Positions 4,485 to 11,556 of a DNA stretch of 12,126 bases are shown here, piece after piece; the first letter of the stretch is position 1; every line of letters starts with the position of its first letter. This stretch comes from Stephanodiscus triporus (lineage: Eukaryota > Bacillariophyta > Thalassiosirophyceae > Thalassiosirales > Thalassiosiraceae). The stretch lies in contig JALLAZ010000789.1 in assembly GCA_036939755.1 (NCBI GenBank), forward strand, positions 1 to 12,126. The letters are read 5' to 3'. A program made the position numbers and the translations under genes. The notes beneath the pieces were generated by a model, which ran no database searches, was not told the origin of the DNA, and saw nothing but the letters and a program-made list of their open reading frames with translations.

Positions 4485-7400
4485 ATGCCGACCGTCCATT
4501 ACGTCTCTCGTAAGTCCCTCGAGCGGGAGTACGGCATAATTTTTCCGCGTTCGCGGCGGGCGGACTCGTCCCCCCCCGATCTCGCGACCCTATTGCGACA
4601 CCACGCCTCCAACGCCGATGCCGCCCGCCTCCTGCCTCCGCGATCGGTGATGACGAAGGCGCATCGAGGCCGCGATGCGGGAAAGGAGTCGTATGACTCG
4701 CATCGCCCGGGCTCGTCGACGGCGGCGAGGACACCGTCGACGGCGCGGACCGCCGACGGGGCGGGTGGGCGCGATGACGGCGATGGGCCGCCCGCCGGGC
4801 GCGACGATGACGGCGGCGACGGTGGTTTGCGTTCGAGGGAGGGCATTAGCTCCATGAACGTCATGGACCTCCCGGAGGACAAGTCCGCCCACGGCACGAT
4901 AGGCACGGAAGCGAGAGCTGAAACGCGGATCGATTCAACGCGGGAAACACCACGACGCAGAGATGATATCGACGCCGAGGAGAAAGGACGCGATGGAGGG
5001 AACAGGGACGGTCGAATCGAGGAGTATGATCGCGTGGACGGCAGTGGCGGCATGGTGGACGACGACTTTGACGACGATGTGGACTCTGACGACGATGTGA
5101 GCATGCGCCCATTCTGAATGCAGCCCGGATGGATGATACATCGTTTTAATATACCCTCGATTTTCCCTTCCTCTTCGTGTCCCCCAATCATCGCAGGCGA
5201 ACGACGACGGCCTCTGCGAGTACGAGCGCCTGCGCCTCGAGCGCATTGCCCGGAACAACGCCCGACTGGCCGAGCTCGGATTCGACGACAGTAAAGCGGA
5301 GAAGAAGCAAATTAAGAGGAGCGCCCCCCCCGCGCAGCGCCGATCCGTTATCTTGGACGGGCCGAGGAGGCAGAATCCCGTCAGGGTGGGGAGAACCACC
5401 AGGCTCAACGAGTTGGAGCTGTTGTTCGAACTTGGATTGAAGAGGAAGAGCGAATGGGTGTGCCCGCCCTCTGGTAGGAATCCTACCGGGAAGGCGCGTC
5501 GCGTCGCCTGCGGTAAGTGCGACGGATGCAAGCGCGACTTCGATTGCCTCACGTGCGTGGCCTGCGCAGCCGGGAATGCAAGGTGCATGTTACGAAAGTG
5601 CCAATGCTTGCAATCGATCCAAGGCCACGCAGGAGCACTGATCGACGAAGTACACGATCACTCTCTCCCAGGTCTTGAACATTACAGCAACGACGCCGAA
5701 TTCCTTACTGCAGCTGAAATATCTAATCGTGCTTTCAACAATATCGTCGACCACCACCAAGAACGGGGTACCATTGCGGAGGCTGGTACGCACAATTCAA
5801 CGAATGAATATACCACAAGGGAAGTCGTCGAGCGCCCTTGCCATCATCATGGAGTAAAACCAAACGACGAGAGTGAGAGGAGTCAAAATTTACTCGACAA
5901 GCTGACGCATCGCCGCAAGCTGCTGGCATGTGTGCGACACAGTCGCATTGCCGCCGAGGAACGGATTCGTGATATTTGCCAGAGCAATGAATGGATTCGT
6001 GATATTTGGCACGAAGAGAGTGAACCGTCATTACCAATTTTTCTTCACGATGTGGTCGATGTTGAGACTTCAACTGTGTTAGATGAGGCTTGTCCGATGT
6101 CAAATGCTGGCACTCACCCAACGCACGGTGTTCATATGTCATCTGGAGGATTATCTGAATCGCCTACACCTGGACGTTTGAGTGATATGGGTACGGCTAG
6201 CGAGAAGACATGCGAAGAATGTGAAGAGAGTTCAATCGGGACGACCGCCGCAGATCCTGCTAGAGACCCCCATCATATCATTGTCACCTGTAATGGAAAA
6301 CAACTGCCCATTGAGGTAGAATCAAGTGAGACCTTGTTAGATCTTCGCAATGAGATTTTAGACCGACAAGGCACACTTGATATTCCAAAGGATGATTTCT
6401 TCTTTCTGCTTGGAAAGAATATCATATCGAAGAAACTTGAGCAACGCCATCTTATTGACGACGTCTTGGAGCAGAACATTTCTGTAGCATTGATCTCGAG
6501 GTCAAACTTGGAGGAGGCAGTCTGTGCTGTTGAAGATGCAGTCGCATTAGTCACCCCCGAAAACACAGTGGCAACCAAGAGACAACTTATCCGACACAAC
6601 ATGACAAACGTCAGAATCACTTGCGAATGCTCAAAGTCCAGATGCCTCAAGTTGTATTGCGACTGTTTCCAACATAGCAAGGTACGAACGCCTTTCTTCG
6701 ATGGCATGCATTATTATCTTAGTTGATACTCATCTAAAAAACTTCTTTCTCTTCATCAGATCTGTTCACCAGAATGTAGCTGCGTTGAATGCCGGAATTC
6801 AGAGGCAGAGAGCGGCCCTCACGGAAATCGAACCATGGCGATAAGTGCCATATTGAAACGGCGACCCGATGCATTTCAAAAGCGAGAGAAGAAACATGAA
6901 GGCTGCAATTGCAAGAAAACTAGGGAAGATTTGCACTGTGCTCTGACTGTTGCAATTCTATCAGACAAGAATGAAGCTAGGTATTAACCTCTTCATTTTG
7001 CGTAGGTGCATCAAGAAGTATTGCATCTGCTACAATGCGGGAATAAAATGCAATCGCAGTTGCGGGTGCAAACAATGTTTAAATCGAGATGATGAGGTCA
7101 GTGGAGAAACATCACTGCAGGTTCAAGAGCCTACCCCCAAAGTGCTGACCAAGTCTTTTTTGCAGGTTGAGGAAGGGCAGCCAGATGCAGCTGGGCATCA
7201 GAGGGCGATGAGAGCGCAAGCAAATAATGAATCTGATGGAGAGTCTCGTGCTTGTTTGACTTGGGACGATGGATTGGGGCAGCTCATGGATTTCAAGGTC
7301 GAATTCGGTCATGTTGACCCTATCGTCGCGCGCGAGGGGAGAGGGCAATGTGTCGACGCGGCGTCGTTGGCCACAACCATGTGCAAGCGATCTGGGGTGG

Positions 7401-10400
7401 CGGGGCCATACGACGAAGTAACATCGATGGCGACGGCGATGAGGGCAACAACGACGACGACGACGACGACGACAACGACGGGGAAGCAGCATCAACCTCC
7501 TCCGCGGCCGAGCCTACACGCGAAGCCGCCGTCGCAACAAAAACAGCAGCAAACGCAACAGCCGACTGATAAACCCCCGCAGGGCAAGGCGATCGAGGCC
7601 GGAAACGAGCACACGGGACGATGGACAAAGGAGGAACACGGGGCGTTCCTGTTGGGGTTGCAGATGTACGGGAAGGAGTGGAAGAAGGTCGCCGCGCGGG
7701 TCAAGACGCGCACGGTCGTGCAGACGAGGACGCACGCACAGAAGTACTTCCAGAAGTTAGCGAAGGGAGAGGTTAGCTTTTTTTTATCTCGACGTGTTCC
7801 TTTTTCGTTGGTTGTTTTTGGTTGGTTGCGATGCGTTTATCAATCGTCATTTAAATCTTTTTCTTGTTTTTGTATCGTAAAAGGGCGGGGGAGAAAGCGA
7901 CGCGAATACTAGTATGTGTGTTGTCGGGTCTATGTCAACGATGCCCCTTGGAGGAGCTGAGATGCCCGTGGCTCAACAAGCCCCATCCGCGAAAATTGCA
8001 AACTCCGCCATGGATCTGGGAGGTCTGGGGGGAGGAGGCTATCCATCGGTGGAGAAGAAACCTAAGAAACGTGTATCGAAAATGTTGGCGACTGCTTCGG
8101 TATCTTCTATACTGCAGGATAAGCAACAGCAGCAGCAGTGTCAACCGCCTGTGGTGACCGGGCAATCGCAACCCCTAATATCTAGGTCGTATTCATCGGA
8201 GGCCGCCTCGGGGTTGTTGAACATGTTCAACGATCGAAGGGTTTCGGCCACAACCCTTGGGTCACCAAGCGCAACTGCTGCTGCTGGTCCATCGTCGCAG
8301 CAGCAACACGGTCTTANACCGAGCCCCGCGGCATGCGGAAAGCGCAAAATGGACGAGATTGCCGCGGCGCAGATGCTTGCTGGAGTCGTCGGTCGGGAAA
8401 CCGGCGCGATAAATTCGACCTCGATCGGCGAAGCACCGTCGCCGAAAAAGCGGCCGAGTGTTATTAGTGGTTCAGCTGCCATCTCTTCGGCTTCGACAAT
8501 GCCAGCGGAGGGTGCCAATCGACAATTGTCTCTTACAGAGTATTTGGCCGGAGTTTTCGAGGACGAGGACATGGCCACGCCGCCCCCTCCTCCTGCAGAG
8601 AATTTTGCCCCAGACTCCCCTTTCTCTGCCGCAGCTGCTGCGATTGCTGGCGCTGATTATACCTCACTATCCGGAAGCACAATGGTAGGGCGTGGACTAG
8701 CACTGCAAATTGTCAACCCAGACACTTTCGGTGGTCATGTCAACAGTGATTTCAAGAGGCTATTCATGAACGGACAGGCTTCTCCTCTAACTCCATGGGA
8801 TGGCCAACTAGAAGCGCTTGTGAGGTAAGTGTCCGGGGTGACGGGTGACAACTTCGATGAATTCATTGATCACTTAAAGTGAAAAACCCTGCCTCCTCCT
8901 CAAATTACAGTCAAGTGAAAAGTCAAGAACCACATCCGCCGCCGGCATTTGCTGACACCGACATCACCGAAGCAGAGTTAGACTCTCTCATTACACCCAT
9001 CATTCTCCCACTACCCCTACGCAATCCACGATCCGATTTCCAATTGGCCATATGCAGAGGCTCGGTGGCTGAGGTGTCAAAAATATGCTCTAATCTTTCT
9101 CATTTGAAATCTTCCGTGATCAACCAGCGCGATGAGGCAGGATTTTTCCCTCTTCACTCTGCAGTTGCATTAGGTCTGTTAGATGAATTCGGATTGAATT
9201 GCCGGGAATCATTGGAGATATGCCAAGTGCTGATTGACAATGGCGCAGATGTGACGTGTCGGGACAAGGATGGAAATACTCCCGTGCACTGGGCGTCGCG
9301 TGCTGGTCACGTCGGAGTTCTGGGACTGCTCCTCGTGAGAAACTGTCCTCTCGACGTTCAAAACAATGCCGGAGAAACCGCCCTCCATTGGGCAATGCGG
9401 GCCGGAGAGAGGGGTGCCGTTGCCGTGAAAGTTCTTGTTGAAAATGGTGCGCGGGTCAACGTCTTCAATCGAAACTTTAGGCGCCCCCTTGACGTTGCGG
9501 CCGAGGGATTCGGGGGCCTGCATGAGGGGTCAGAAGGAAATGGTTCGGCCAAACATGATGATTCGGCTTGTTGCATTAAGCCTAATATCAGGGAAAGGAG
9601 GACGTCACGATGGAACCTCATGAGATTTTCCTCGCAATGTAGAACACTGGTCCTGTATCATCAAGAATGTCTTGATCACTTGGCTAAGTCAGATGCAGAT
9701 TGGGAGGTGCCGGACAGGATTGAAAATATCATGTCAACTCTGACGACTAGGACTACCGAATCATGTGTACCAGACGACGAGCTGAGCTTCAAACCATGTG
9801 AAGTAACAATCTCAAATGAATTCGAGAGAGCAACGCTGGAATTGCTCAGTAGAATACACAGCGCTGAATATTTGGCGTTTATTAATGACTTGAGTAAAGA
9901 GTTGGAGCGAAAACGGAAGCAGCAGCTCATTGAAGAAACTCAGTACAATACTGAGGGTGTTGTTCAAGAAAAACCAAGTAATGTTGTTCCATTCACTCCA
10001 ATGGTACGTGAAACAGTTTCAATCTGGTCCATGTAGCCCTTCAGGTCTTCCCACGGTGAAACTTATTTCCAATATTTTTACATTATTATAACCTTCAGGT
10101 TCAACGCAAAATAATGAAGGATGTGACAACGAAAGAGGATTTACATTCAGATACTGCTTTTAGTGCCGGATCACTGAAAGCAGCAAGACGAGCAGCAGGT
10201 GCAGTTCAACATGCTGTCGATTGGTAAGGATTCGGTGATTTATCTGTGTTTACCATCATTAAGCACTATCTCATTATGTCTGCAATTCATCTGCAGTGTG
10301 CTTGTTGGTAGAAATCGCAATGCATTTTGCATTGTTCGCCCCCCTGGCCATCATGCTGGTATTAACGGCCTTTTGTCTGATGCGGAATCTTGCGGTTTTT

Positions 10401-11556
10401 GTCTATTTAACAACGTCGCCGCTGGAGCCATGCATGCCCTCTCAGACGAAAAGCATCGACCAAGATGCGAACGTTGTGCCATTGTTGATATTGATGCTCA
10501 TCATGGCAATGGTACAGAAGAAATTGTGAGGAAATGCCACGATTCTGGGAGGCTTTTATTTTTCTCTGTTCACCTCTATGACCACGACAAACCGACGAAG
10601 GGAAGTTTTCAATATAAGTTCTATCCCGGGACAGGCGCTGAAGATGAAGTCGCTCACAATATAATCAATGTGCCTATAGCACCACTGTGGAGAGAGAAAG
10701 ATGTGGCGAAAAGTTTATCCCTAGCTTCGAATGGAGGGACAGCAACCACACAACCTAGGCAAACAAGGCAAACGAGGCTAAGATCCAAGGAGGACGCAGC
10801 ACCACAGAGACTTCCTTCTCTTCCTGATCTTAGTAAATACAAAAATGAAGAAGCAGTGCCCGATGCCACATTGAAGCCTGTCAGCGTTAACAACAGTTCT
10901 TTGGAGACAGCTAGTGTGGCATCAGATTCAAGCCAATCGTCCAAGCCTCGAGCGCCCTTGCCATCAGCATCGCCTCATTACCCCCCACACTATCTTATGG
11001 GGGTAGGAAGACTTGCATATAGACGCGCAATTCAACATCGTTTGTTACCAGCATTGCGAGCTTTCAACCCAGACTTAATTATTTTGAGCACAGGTTTCGA
11101 CGCAGCTCGTGGGGATGTCGGGAACGCACGCCACTATGTTAACGGTACTGAAGCTATGGGTTTAGACCTTGAGCCCGAGGACTATGCATGGACAGCCAGA
11201 AAGGTAAGTTTATTCAAAGCATATCATCACATCTAGCCATGTTTTTTTCTCACCCCTGCAGTTCTTTGATGTCATTTTATCAGGTCTGTGAAATAGCGGA
11301 TATTTGCTGTAATGGGCGGGTTGTATCAGTCTTGGAAGGCGGTTACGGGCGTACACCTCCTCCTGTACCATCGCCTCAACATTCTGCACCAACGCCGCCA
11401 CATTCTGGCAACAAACCTGCCTCAGTATCAATTCGACAAAAGCTAGACAAGTCGTTCTTTTCTGAGTGTGCGATTCAACATCTCAAAGGATTGATTGATC
11501 CATACTACACAGACGAACAAGAACAGACAGACTCTTCCGATAGAAAGCGTCCCTAA
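4485..11556 (+). CDS. Multidomain chromatin protein: CXXC zinc finger - Ubl? - CRC - Myb - ankyrin - histone deacetylase
   Basis: Nine exons are inferred: 4485-5096, 5197-6681, 6760-6923, 7006-7771, 7884-8824, 8911-10003, 10099-10223, 10297-11203 and 11284-11556 (TAA). Phase is kept at each junction, giving about 2,121 residues. Introns are 100, 78, 82, 112, 86, 95, 73 and 80 bases; all are GT-AG except 6924-7005 (GG-AG). Start: ATG 4485 (MPTVHYVSRK) was chosen; ATG 4434 in the same frame would add 17 residues. Exon 1 is disordered, charged and ends in an acidic DDDFDDDVDSDDD run. Module positions are: motif YERLRLERIARN 213-224, CXXC 305-343, Ubl-like 563-639, CRC 676-780, Myb 958-1002, ankyrin 1397-1520, HDAC 1567-2055. 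Linkers are Ser/Gln/Thr-rich. The ankyrin/HDAC exons have no ATG before the ankyrin repeats, which argues against a separate gene there. The expected role is a nuclear, DNA-targeted deacetylase that represses transcription. The alternative is two or three adjacent genes; the weakest links are exon 1-2 and the CRC-to-Myb stretch. Confidence 0.62.
5097..5196 (+). other. Intron 1 of the fusion gene
   Basis: The donor GTGAGC at 5097 follows GACGAT-type acidic codons, and the acceptor ATCGCAG ends at 5196. It is 100 bases, phase 0. Splicing joins the acidic run of exon 1 to ANDDGLCEYERLRLERIARN. Unspliced, exon 1 would read only VSMRPF before a TGA at 5115-5117. The joined sequence, acidic residues then a YE-R-x-R-I-x-R-N helix, resembles a short motif seen in plant and algal nuclear proteins, which supports the junction. 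Confidence 0.7.
5497..5613 (+). other. CXXC-type zinc finger module
   Basis: The frame reads RRVACGKCDGC, then KRDFDCLTCVAC, AAGNARC and MLRKCQCLQ. The spacing is C-x2-C-x2-C-x5-C-x2-C-x2-C, then C-x4-C, with CGxCxGC and the closing RKCQ, which is the layout of zf-CXXC domains (MLL, DNMT1, CFP1) that bind unmethylated CpG DNA. All eight zinc-ligand Cys are visible. The loop between the sixth and seventh Cys is only six residues and lacks the KFGG motif of many animal members, so CpG specificity cannot be assumed. The preceding basic stretch (GPRRQNPVRVGRTTR) could add DNA contact. It may instead be a lineage-specific Cys-rich finger. Confidence 0.75.
6271..6507 (+). other. Possible ubiquitin-like domain
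   Basis: About 77 residues alternate hydrophobic strands and a helix: HIIVTCNGKQLPIEV, then ETLLDLRNEILDRQG, then DDFFFLLGKNIISKKLEQ and a closing ISVALISR. The pattern of strand, turn, strand, a T-x-x-D-L-R helix and a FxFLL-GK strand resembles ubiquitin-like folds. There is no Gly-Gly tail, so a fused interaction domain rather than a processed modifier would be expected. It lies between the CXXC finger and the CRC. The assignment rests on pattern only and could be wrong (PB1 or another beta-grasp fold). Confidence 0.4.
6610..7084 (+). other. CRC (Tesmin/TSO1-like CXC) DNA-binding domain, two halves split by introns
   Basis: First half: TCECSKSRCLKLYCDCF, then HSK joined across an intron to ICSPECSCVECRN. 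Second half: GCNCKKTR joined to CIKKYCICYNAG, then IKCNRSCGCKQCLN. Each half shows C-x-C-x4-C-x3-Y-C-x-C followed by the C-x3-C-x-C-x2-C end expected of the family. A basic spacer of about 34 residues links them. In LIN54, TSO1 and CPP proteins the paired halves bind zinc and insert a Tyr each into the minor groove of TTYGAA-like sites; both Tyr are present. The second half fits the family spacing only if the 82-base intron 6924-7005 is removed, and that intron has a GG donor. Confidence 0.92.
6924..7005 (+). other. Intron 3, with a non-canonical GG donor
   Basis: The exon ends ACTAG and the intron begins GGAAGA where GTAAGA would be a standard donor; the acceptor TTTTGCGTAG at 7005 is good. 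Removing these 82 bases joins KKTR to CIKKYC and restores exact CXC spacing. No other GT donor upstream is in the right phase except 6981, which would leave a 25-base intron and insert 19 residues between KKTR and CIKKYC. Full retention hits TAA at 6985-6987. A T-to-G change, real or from sequencing, is the simplest reading. Confidence 0.7.
7097..7165 (+). other. Candidate in-frame (69-base) intron between CRC and Myb
   Basis: The donor GAG|GTCAGT at 7097 and acceptor CTTTTTTGCAG ending at 7165 flank 69 bases with no stop in frame. Splicing or retention both keep the reading frame; the difference is 23 residues (785-807). A second possible acceptor, CACTGCAG, ends at 7120. It could be a constitutive intron, an alternatively used one, or coding sequence with chance splice signals. 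Confidence 0.45.
7448..7480 (+). repeat. ACG trinucleotide tract encoding 11 consecutive Thr
   Basis: Eleven Thr codons (ACA or ACG) occur in a row, at least seven of them uninterrupted ACG. They sit in the disordered linker before the Myb repeat, next to Gln/Pro-rich sequence (KQQQQTQQP-like). The tract is a microsatellite likely to vary in length, and the surrounding segment is unlikely to be folded. Confidence 0.85.
7616..7750 (+). other. One-repeat Myb DNA-binding domain, (S/T)HAQKYF class
   Basis: The frame reads GRWTKEEHGAFLLGLQMYG, KEWKKVAARV, KTRTVVQTRTHAQKYF. The first two Trp of the Myb helix set are present, and the third helix carries R-T-x-x-Q-x-R-T-H-A-Q-K-Y-F. This is the signature of plant REVEILLE/CCA1-like and protist one-repeat Myb factors; here the usual S is T. 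It sits 19 bases upstream of the donor at 7772, after a Gln/Pro/Thr-rich linker. A Lys/Gly tail (QKLAKGE) ends the exon. On its own it would be called a Myb transcription factor. Confidence 0.92.
7772..7883 (+). other. Intron after the Myb repeat
   Basis: The donor GAGAG|GTTAGC at 7772 is followed by a T-rich body, and the acceptor ATCGTAAAAG ends at 7883. It is 112 bases, phase 0. It joins AKGE to GGGESDANTSMCVVG, after which a long Ser/Ala/Gln-rich exon runs to 8824. Retention would add VSFFLSRRVPF... and end at a stop at 7910-7912, giving a protein that finishes soon after the Myb repeat. Confidence 0.75.
7884..8824 (+). other. Disordered linker exon between Myb and ankyrin modules
   Basis: About 314 residues, rich in Ser, Ala, Gln and Pro, with a poly-Gln run (KQQQQQC), a basic patch (EKKPKKRVSK) that could serve as a nuclear localisation signal, and a second one (PKKRPS). 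Later parts have short conserved-looking segments (LSLTEYLAGVFEDED; SGDFKRLF-like and SPLTPWDGQLEALV). No enzyme family is recognised. The undetermined base at 8317 leaves one unknown residue. The exon ends in phase 2 at donor GTAAGT. Confidence 0.6.
8825..8910 (+). other. Intron whose donor overlaps a stop codon
   Basis: The donor is GAG|GTAAGT at 8825 and the acceptor AAATTACAG ends at 8910. It is 86 bases, phase 2, joining GTG AG to T CAA to give V-S-Q. If unspliced, the frame reads V-R-stop, the TAA being at 8826-8828 inside the donor. Splicing thus decides whether the ankyrin and deacetylase half is made. Confidence 0.75.
9131..9502 (+). other. Ankyrin repeats
   Basis: Three clear units are seen: DEAGFFPLHSAVALG...ICQVLIDNGADVTC, then RDKDGNTPVHWASRAGH, VGVLGLLLVRNCPLDVQ, then NNAGETALHWAMRAGE...VKVLVENGARVNV, with a start of a fourth (NRNFRRPLDVA). 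A preceding helix pair (DFQLAICRGSVAEVSKIC) may be a degenerate cap. The motifs G-x-T-x-L/V-H-W-A and L-x-x-x-G-A-x-V are standard. Ankyrin stacks bind proteins; next to a deacetylase they probably recruit partners or substrates. The first unit has a longer loop (LDEFGLNCRESLE). Confidence 0.93.
10004..10098 (+). other. Intron within the deacetylase domain (95 bases)
   Basis: The donor ATG|GTACGT is at 10004 and the acceptor ACCTTCAG ends at 10098, phase 0. It joins FTPM to VQRKIMKDVTTKEDLHSDTA, restoring the expected deacetylase order. Confidence 0.85.
10224..10296 (+). other. Intron within the deacetylase domain (73 bases)
   Basis: The donor TTG|GTAAGG is at 10224 and the acceptor CATCTGCAG ends at 10296, phase 2. 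It gives AVQHAVD-C-VLVGRNRNAFCIVRPPGHH, a contiguous family match. Confidence 0.88.
11204..11283 (+). other. Last intron, before the catalytic-Tyr exon (80 bases)
   Basis: The donor AAG|GTAAGT is at 11204. The acceptor TTTATCAG ending at 11283 gives YAWTARK-VCEIADICCNGRVVSVLEGGYG, the expected family spacing. An earlier CCCTGCAG ending at 11261 would be a weaker protein match. The final exon ends with a Pro/Ser-rich tail at TAA 11554-11556. Confidence 0.85.

Follow-up and report, generated by a model that had tools for sequence, protein, structure and literature searches.

The contig analysed here is probably a chimera of two loci of one diatom (we put the probability at roughly 85%, judging from sequence comparisons), and the five-module protein that can be read across it is probably not real. 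The window, by which we mean the whole stretch of 12,126 nucleotides from Stephanodiscus triporus, is an entire contig (C781). A sequence-only reading had proposed that nine of its exons encode a single chain with CXXC, CRC, Myb, ankyrin, and class II histone deacetylase (HDAC) modules. Our verdict concerns that chain and not the two genes behind it. Locus A carries a CXXC-like and CRC gene; locus B is, on the evidence of its predicted protein, a Myb-ankyrin-HDAC gene that is conserved in ochrophytes. We favor a chimera because in a predicted protein of S. triporus (P0153) the same 5' half is followed by a degenerate Myb domain and by exons from a second contig (C828), because the flanks of locus A belong together, and because the 5' part of locus A is, as far as we tested, single. 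A spectacular and probably false protein is thereby kept out of the annotation, and the window is a case in point of two chromatin genes being linked in a draft assembly through an exon segment that both of them carry as a duplicate.

The joined gene model and its domains

The proposed read-through of about 2,120 residues was reproduced: joining the nine exons (Table 1) gives 2,121 residues in a frame that is free of stops, and phase is kept at 8 of 8 junctions. Seven of the eight introns are GT-AG. Intron 3 starts with GG, and if it is retained, then the frame ends at a stop at 6985-6987. This GG may be a base error, a base change, or a rare splice site. P0153 is spliced at the equivalent borders despite the GG donor in the window. 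We also considered a CRC gene on contig C31 as a guide to the ancestral donor, but its second intron lies elsewhere (as judged by eye), and we draw no conclusion from it. In the joined model, exon 4 runs from 7006 to 7771, and as had been claimed, the second half of the CRC and the Myb domain lie in one open frame (6947-7909). We do not accept the open frame and the kept phase as proof of one gene, as the frame is also open across the switch between the loci and the homologues disagree. The window contains one N. Upstream of these exons and divergent from them is a glycine-rich GRDP-like gene (PF07173; 1779-3614, minus strand).

A domain search of the joined protein bore out the CRC, Myb, ankyrin, and HDAC modules, with TCR/CXC (the CRC), Myb, Ank, and Hist_deacetyl all passing the Pfam cut-offs, but it did not bear out the CXXC module: the zf-CXXC profile (PF02008) had no match at E ≤ 1 in either the window or P0153. 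A ubiquitin-like stretch scored below its cut-off. The CXXC call rests partly on the spacing of the cysteines, which we take to follow the pattern of such domains. It also rests on a match at 55% between residues 196-340 of the window's protein and P0125, a Cyclostephanos protein with CXXC and PHD domains; P0125 has two PF02008 stretches, and the best one (455-494) falls outside the part that aligns to the window. The CRC (tesmin/TSO1 type) has two CXC motifs, and P0153 likewise has two such stretches. The deacetylase is predicted to be catalytically intact, as had been proposed, since its catalytic and zinc-binding motifs RPPGHH, DIDAHHGNGT, GFDAARGD, and EGGY are all there. By sequence, its best solved relative is HDAC6. 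The class II label and the roles that we assign to the motifs are our assumptions.

Table 1. Features of the two loci in the window and of the zone where they meet
Feature	Position	Strand	Basis or remark
Locus A exon 1	4485..5096	+	P0153 begins at the ATG at 4650
Locus A exon 2: CXXC-like (5509-5607), ubiquitin-like (6283-6399, below cut-off), start of CRC	5197..6681	+	
Locus A exon 3: middle of CRC	6760..6923	+	Pfam, exon joining
Intron 3, GG donor	6924..7005	+	exon joining
Locus A part of exon 4: end of CRC (to 7087); to ~7318 common to HA-domain proteins P0121-P0123	7006..7570	+	
Putative contig switch zone, locus A to locus B, residues 942-965	7568..7639	+	identity break against P0153
Myb domain (HAQKYF type), canonical locus B copy	7616..7750	+	Pfam, homologue residues
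Segment duplicated on contig C828 (11701-10860, minus strand)	7801..8420	+	
Locus B exon 5	7884..8824	+	exon joining, homologue alignment
Single N; C828 has 192 more in-frame bases there	8317..8317	+	
Locus B exon 6: ankyrin repeats (9206-9466), start of HDAC domain	8911..10003	+	Pfam, homologues
Locus B exon 7, HDAC	10099..10223	+	
Locus B exon 8, HDAC catalytic motifs	10297..11203	+	Pfam, motifs
Locus B exon 9: end of HDAC with EGGY motif, stop	11284..11556	+	Pfam, motifs

The break between the two loci

P0153 (ACHAW5_006364) is a predicted protein of 1,524 residues from a 77,641-bp contig of S. triporus. Its CRC and a degenerate Myb domain lie on one predicted chain, and its CXXC-like stretch is recognized by identity to the window only. 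Against the joined model it has 1 mismatch in 886 over residues 56-941 (within exon 2, only residue 626 differs) and then 7 mismatches in 68 over residues 942-1009 (Fisher p = 5e-8), so that it departs from the window at residues 942-965. At the Myb sites H965, K977, E978, and R995, the residue in the window is found in 15 of 15 homologues, which were a set chosen from the matches of the ankyrin-HDAC and full-length searches; R985 is found in 9 of 14. At each of these sites, the residue in P0153 is found in none of them.

Beyond the break, P0153 continues onto C828 across introns (97.7% identity over 258 residues, 100% over 149, and 87.8% over 188). C828 repeats a segment of the window and then diverges from it, and the duplicated part, from Myb to PSPAACGKRK, is common to the two loci. 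Base identity between the window and C828 is 395/432 in the exon to the left of the N, 96/101 to its right, and 60/80 in the intron. The 192 extra in-frame bases of C828 include the code for ISIVAPTYEDM...KFPE, which is slightly different in P0153. In P0001-P0008, this middle stretch (ISIVAPT.EDM..KFPEPSPAACGKRK) takes variant forms. The window has PSPAACGKRK, and the portion of the middle stretch before it falls in the gap marked by the N, apparently a second scar of assembly within this segment. C828 ends within the intron that follows the Myb exon, and the degenerate Myb exon was not found elsewhere in the window's own assembly. We considered whether C828 is the other allele of this locus, and we reject this because it has different 3' exons and matches P0153. 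The C-terminal part of P0153, which is encoded on C828, has no Pfam domain at E ≤ 1; to us it looks Tudor-like, presumably.

These observations suggest the following account. Locus A would hold a CXXC-like/ubiquitin-like/CRC gene, which in relatives is followed by HA domains. Its HA part would have been replaced by a duplicated piece of locus B (the degenerate Myb through PSPAACGKRK...GAINST), and the gene would then run into the 3' exons that are now on C828. The assembler would have switched from locus A to locus B within the shared segment, at about 7568-7639, with the second scar at 8317. We infer that this crossing was an assembly error rather than recombination in the cell.

Several observations count against a chimera. 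There is no N at the switch zone, the frame stays open across it, and P0153 is not fully identical to C828, with a few differing residues around ISIV..TYEDM and QM/QL. We did not find another 5' end for gene B in the window's own genome, nor was there a Myb-ankyrin-HDAC protein from S. triporus among the matches listed (120 of 328 for the ankyrin-HDAC part and 120 of 219 for the full length). Also, the S. triporus assembly is reported as fragmented, with 15,611 sequences and an N50 of 7,327 (PMC12159174), so P0153's contig could be the wrong one. As for the sequences that we failed to find, the assembly that we searched has 21.65 Mb in 1,324 contigs, and the same source gives 56-73 Mb for Stephanodiscus and Cyclostephanos assemblies (PMC12159174). 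All of the own-genome contigs whose length we looked at exceed 10 kb. Because this assembly looks length-filtered, the absence of a sequence from it is weak evidence.

The open frame with phase kept at 8 junctions, the lack of an N at the switch, the fragmentation of the S. triporus assembly, and our failure to find another 5' end for gene B would also fit a contig that is right. An old fusion, or a crossover between the duplicated copies of the shared segment, would then really have united the CXXC-CRC gene with the Myb-ankyrin-HDAC gene. All of the modules would sit on one chain, a single-chain repressor that binds DNA through three kinds of module. We think that this is improbable, given that in P0153 this 5' half leads into the degenerate Myb and then the C828 exons, that the flanks of locus A recur together in relatives, and that the N scar lies within the same segment. 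Furthermore, no homologue among the matches listed has this architecture. Within the 120 listed of the 219 matches to the full-length protein, only P0153 has TCR at all, alongside Myb, and it has neither Ank nor HDAC. The claim of five modules in one gene was not confirmed: P0153 leaves the window at the break, and the Myb-ankyrin-HDAC homologues begin near Myb. Taken together, P0153, C828, and the homologues come close to placing the modules in consistently separate genes among orthologues, which the sequence-only reading had named as a refutation. Parts of the claim survive: Myb, ankyrin, and HDAC do share a chain in 64 of 120 listed proteins, as do the CXXC-like stretch, CRC, and Myb in P0153, but P0153, C828, and the homologues speak against the union of the two.

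Alternatively, the order of the DNA might be right and the window might hold two neighbors: a truncated and decaying CXXC-CRC gene, and then a Myb-ankyrin-HDAC gene that has a promoter and an ATG to itself (the latter near 7424, for example). The GG donor of intron 3, whose retention ends the frame, would fit a decaying gene, as would the HA part being cut off near 7318, and the homologues of gene B do begin near Myb. Nevertheless, we consider two neighbors to be very improbable: the same 5' half is intact and nearly identical in P0153, where it runs into C828; the CRC and Myb share one frame; and no N-terminus of the gene B family was found ahead of Myb. We return to the chimera below.

The CXXC-like and CRC gene and its relatives

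A search with the CXXC-CRC half found 32 relatives, and it covered only proteins of about 430-1,370 residues. By Pfam labels, CRC is joined to Myb or HDAC in none of the 32. Three relatives with HA domains (P0121-P0123) track the model over about residues 466-658 and 784-858 and then continue into their HA domains. Another, P0126, has half a CRC and HA domains and is 56.5% identical to residues 360-519 of the model. The tail of P0126 matches C828 immediately beyond the shared segment (E = 4.4e-9 when the genome was searched and 5.8e-11 against C828 alone). P0122 and P0121 also match C828, the former with its tail (E = 0.005) and the latter with its head (E = 6e-5); each of these two matches is weak singly, and the three lie in three different frames. 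Against the window, the tails of P0126 and P0122 gave E = 0.24 or worse. Because the sequence of C828 beyond the shared segment is similar to that of relatives with the 5' half of locus A, we argue that the flanks of locus A belong together, and if so, then it was the HA part that was replaced by a piece of gene B.

As far as we tested, the 5' part of locus A occurs once in this assembly: we found no second, near-identical place for the 784-residue protein that represents it, and window 7090-7620 had no other match in its own genome except short ones in its repeat-rich part. On contig C84 (L049, 4249-4664), the stretch from the last part of exon 1 through intron 1 into exon 2 has a counterpart at 72% DNA identity, in a gene that is PHD/ADD-like by eye and that has a close relative in S. 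triporus (P0139). HA-domain sequences are numerous in the window's genome (27 matches with P0122, of which two are in the window), and several have stops, as in an expanding and decaying family.

Gene A would combine a CXXC-like stretch, a CRC, and a degenerate Myb on one predicted chain, with the Myb copy as a putative DNA binder. This composite gene of Stephanodiscus would be a second and narrower case of domain shuffling.

A Myb-ankyrin-deacetylase family

With the ankyrin-HDAC part as the query, we found 328 proteins. Among the 120 matches listed, 64 have Pfam labels for Myb, Ank, and HDAC (we counted these by eye). Many of the 56 listed proteins without a Myb label are short pieces, but they also include the two closest matches (P0001 and P0002) and P0010 from Cyclotella cryptica. 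All three labels are found, among the matches listed, in Thalassiosira, Skeletonema, Nitzschia, Amphora, Fistulifera, Mayamaea, Epithemia, Triparma, a chrysophyte, and Ectocarpus (partial). Some of the holders are transcriptome proteins (MMETSP), so in those organisms Myb and HDAC are on one assembled transcript. When P0001-P0066 were aligned to the 2,121-residue model, none reached upstream of residue 894 (the alignment was tabulated for P0001-P0066 and P0121-P0152; P0067-P0120 were also compared, with their rows not printed).

Locus B in the window has the same layout as the family. Its frame, once spliced, runs from a Myb domain of the HAQKYF type through the ankyrin repeats to the HDAC domain, and introns 4 and 5 both keep the phase. 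The ankyrin and HDAC exons lack an ATG of their own, which had been offered in support of the five-module chain; the Myb exons upstream explain this, and the CXXC-CRC exons do not.

Several members of the family from Thalassiosira have their own N-terminus (MDGSANPPP or MSALTAAA). We did not find this N-terminus in the window's own genome at E ≤ 1 with that of P0154, a low-complexity query. This search gave 8 matches, which were the Myb part of the window, six other Myb places (C299 twice, C11, C468, and C530 twice), and C37 (E = 0.2). We considered contig C11 as the missing 5' half of gene B and rejected it, as its Myb copy, the third, is decayed and has other open frames on either side. This copy (C11:9308-9595, L033) comprises the Myb exon, the next intron, and the start of exon 5. 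It implies that the segment from Myb to exon 5 has been copied more than once.

From what is known of such domains, we expect that the Myb of gene B would bind DNA and bring a class II-like deacetylase to chosen promoters, where it would deacetylate nearby histones. Partner binding would fall to the ankyrin repeats, and the whole would be a one-chain repressor. The idea of a self-targeting deacetylase may thus hold for Myb, but not for CXXC or CRC. If Myb-ankyrin-HDAC proteins do recruit deacetylation to chosen sites alone, then they are natural one-chain repressors. In any case, a Myb domain fused to ankyrin-HDAC in diatoms, a bolidophyte (Triparma), a chrysophyte, and a brown alga is worth attention, and our searches of open-licence papers turned up none on such a fusion.

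A related protein from an oomycete is HDA2 of Phytophthora infestans (PITG_08237), which has ankyrin repeats and HDAC (PMC4030286). Ankyrin and HDAC are common to HDA2 and locus B, but the table row for HDA2, which gives the ankyrin repeats in square brackets, names no Myb (PMC4030286). In another oomycete, Lagenidium giganteum, a predicted protein of 2,789 amino acids (P0172) has Ank, HDAC, and DUF2428-type labels; it may be a merged gene model.

The tesmin/TSO1 CRC proteins resemble locus A in their CXC motifs, with PF03638 over the cut-off. Unlike the five-module model, those among the 32 relatives have no Myb or HDAC label from Pfam. P0153 resembles the window in that 885 of 886 residues are identical over model residues 56-941 (including the CRC and the CXXC-like stretch), but it ends with the degenerate Myb and then the C828 exons, and it has no ankyrin repeats or HDAC. 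The ochrophyte proteins differ from the five-module model in the other direction, as each has an N-terminus of its own, starts near Myb, and is labeled for neither CXXC nor CRC. What they share with locus B is Myb, ankyrin, and HDAC on one chain. Examples are P0003 and P0007 (from Thalassiosira transcriptomes) and P0006 (T. exigua), which are 73-77% identical to the ankyrin-HDAC part of the window, as well as P0011 (Skeletonema menzelii), P0066 (Triparma), P0100 (a chrysophyte), and P0090 (Ectocarpus fasciculatus, partial).
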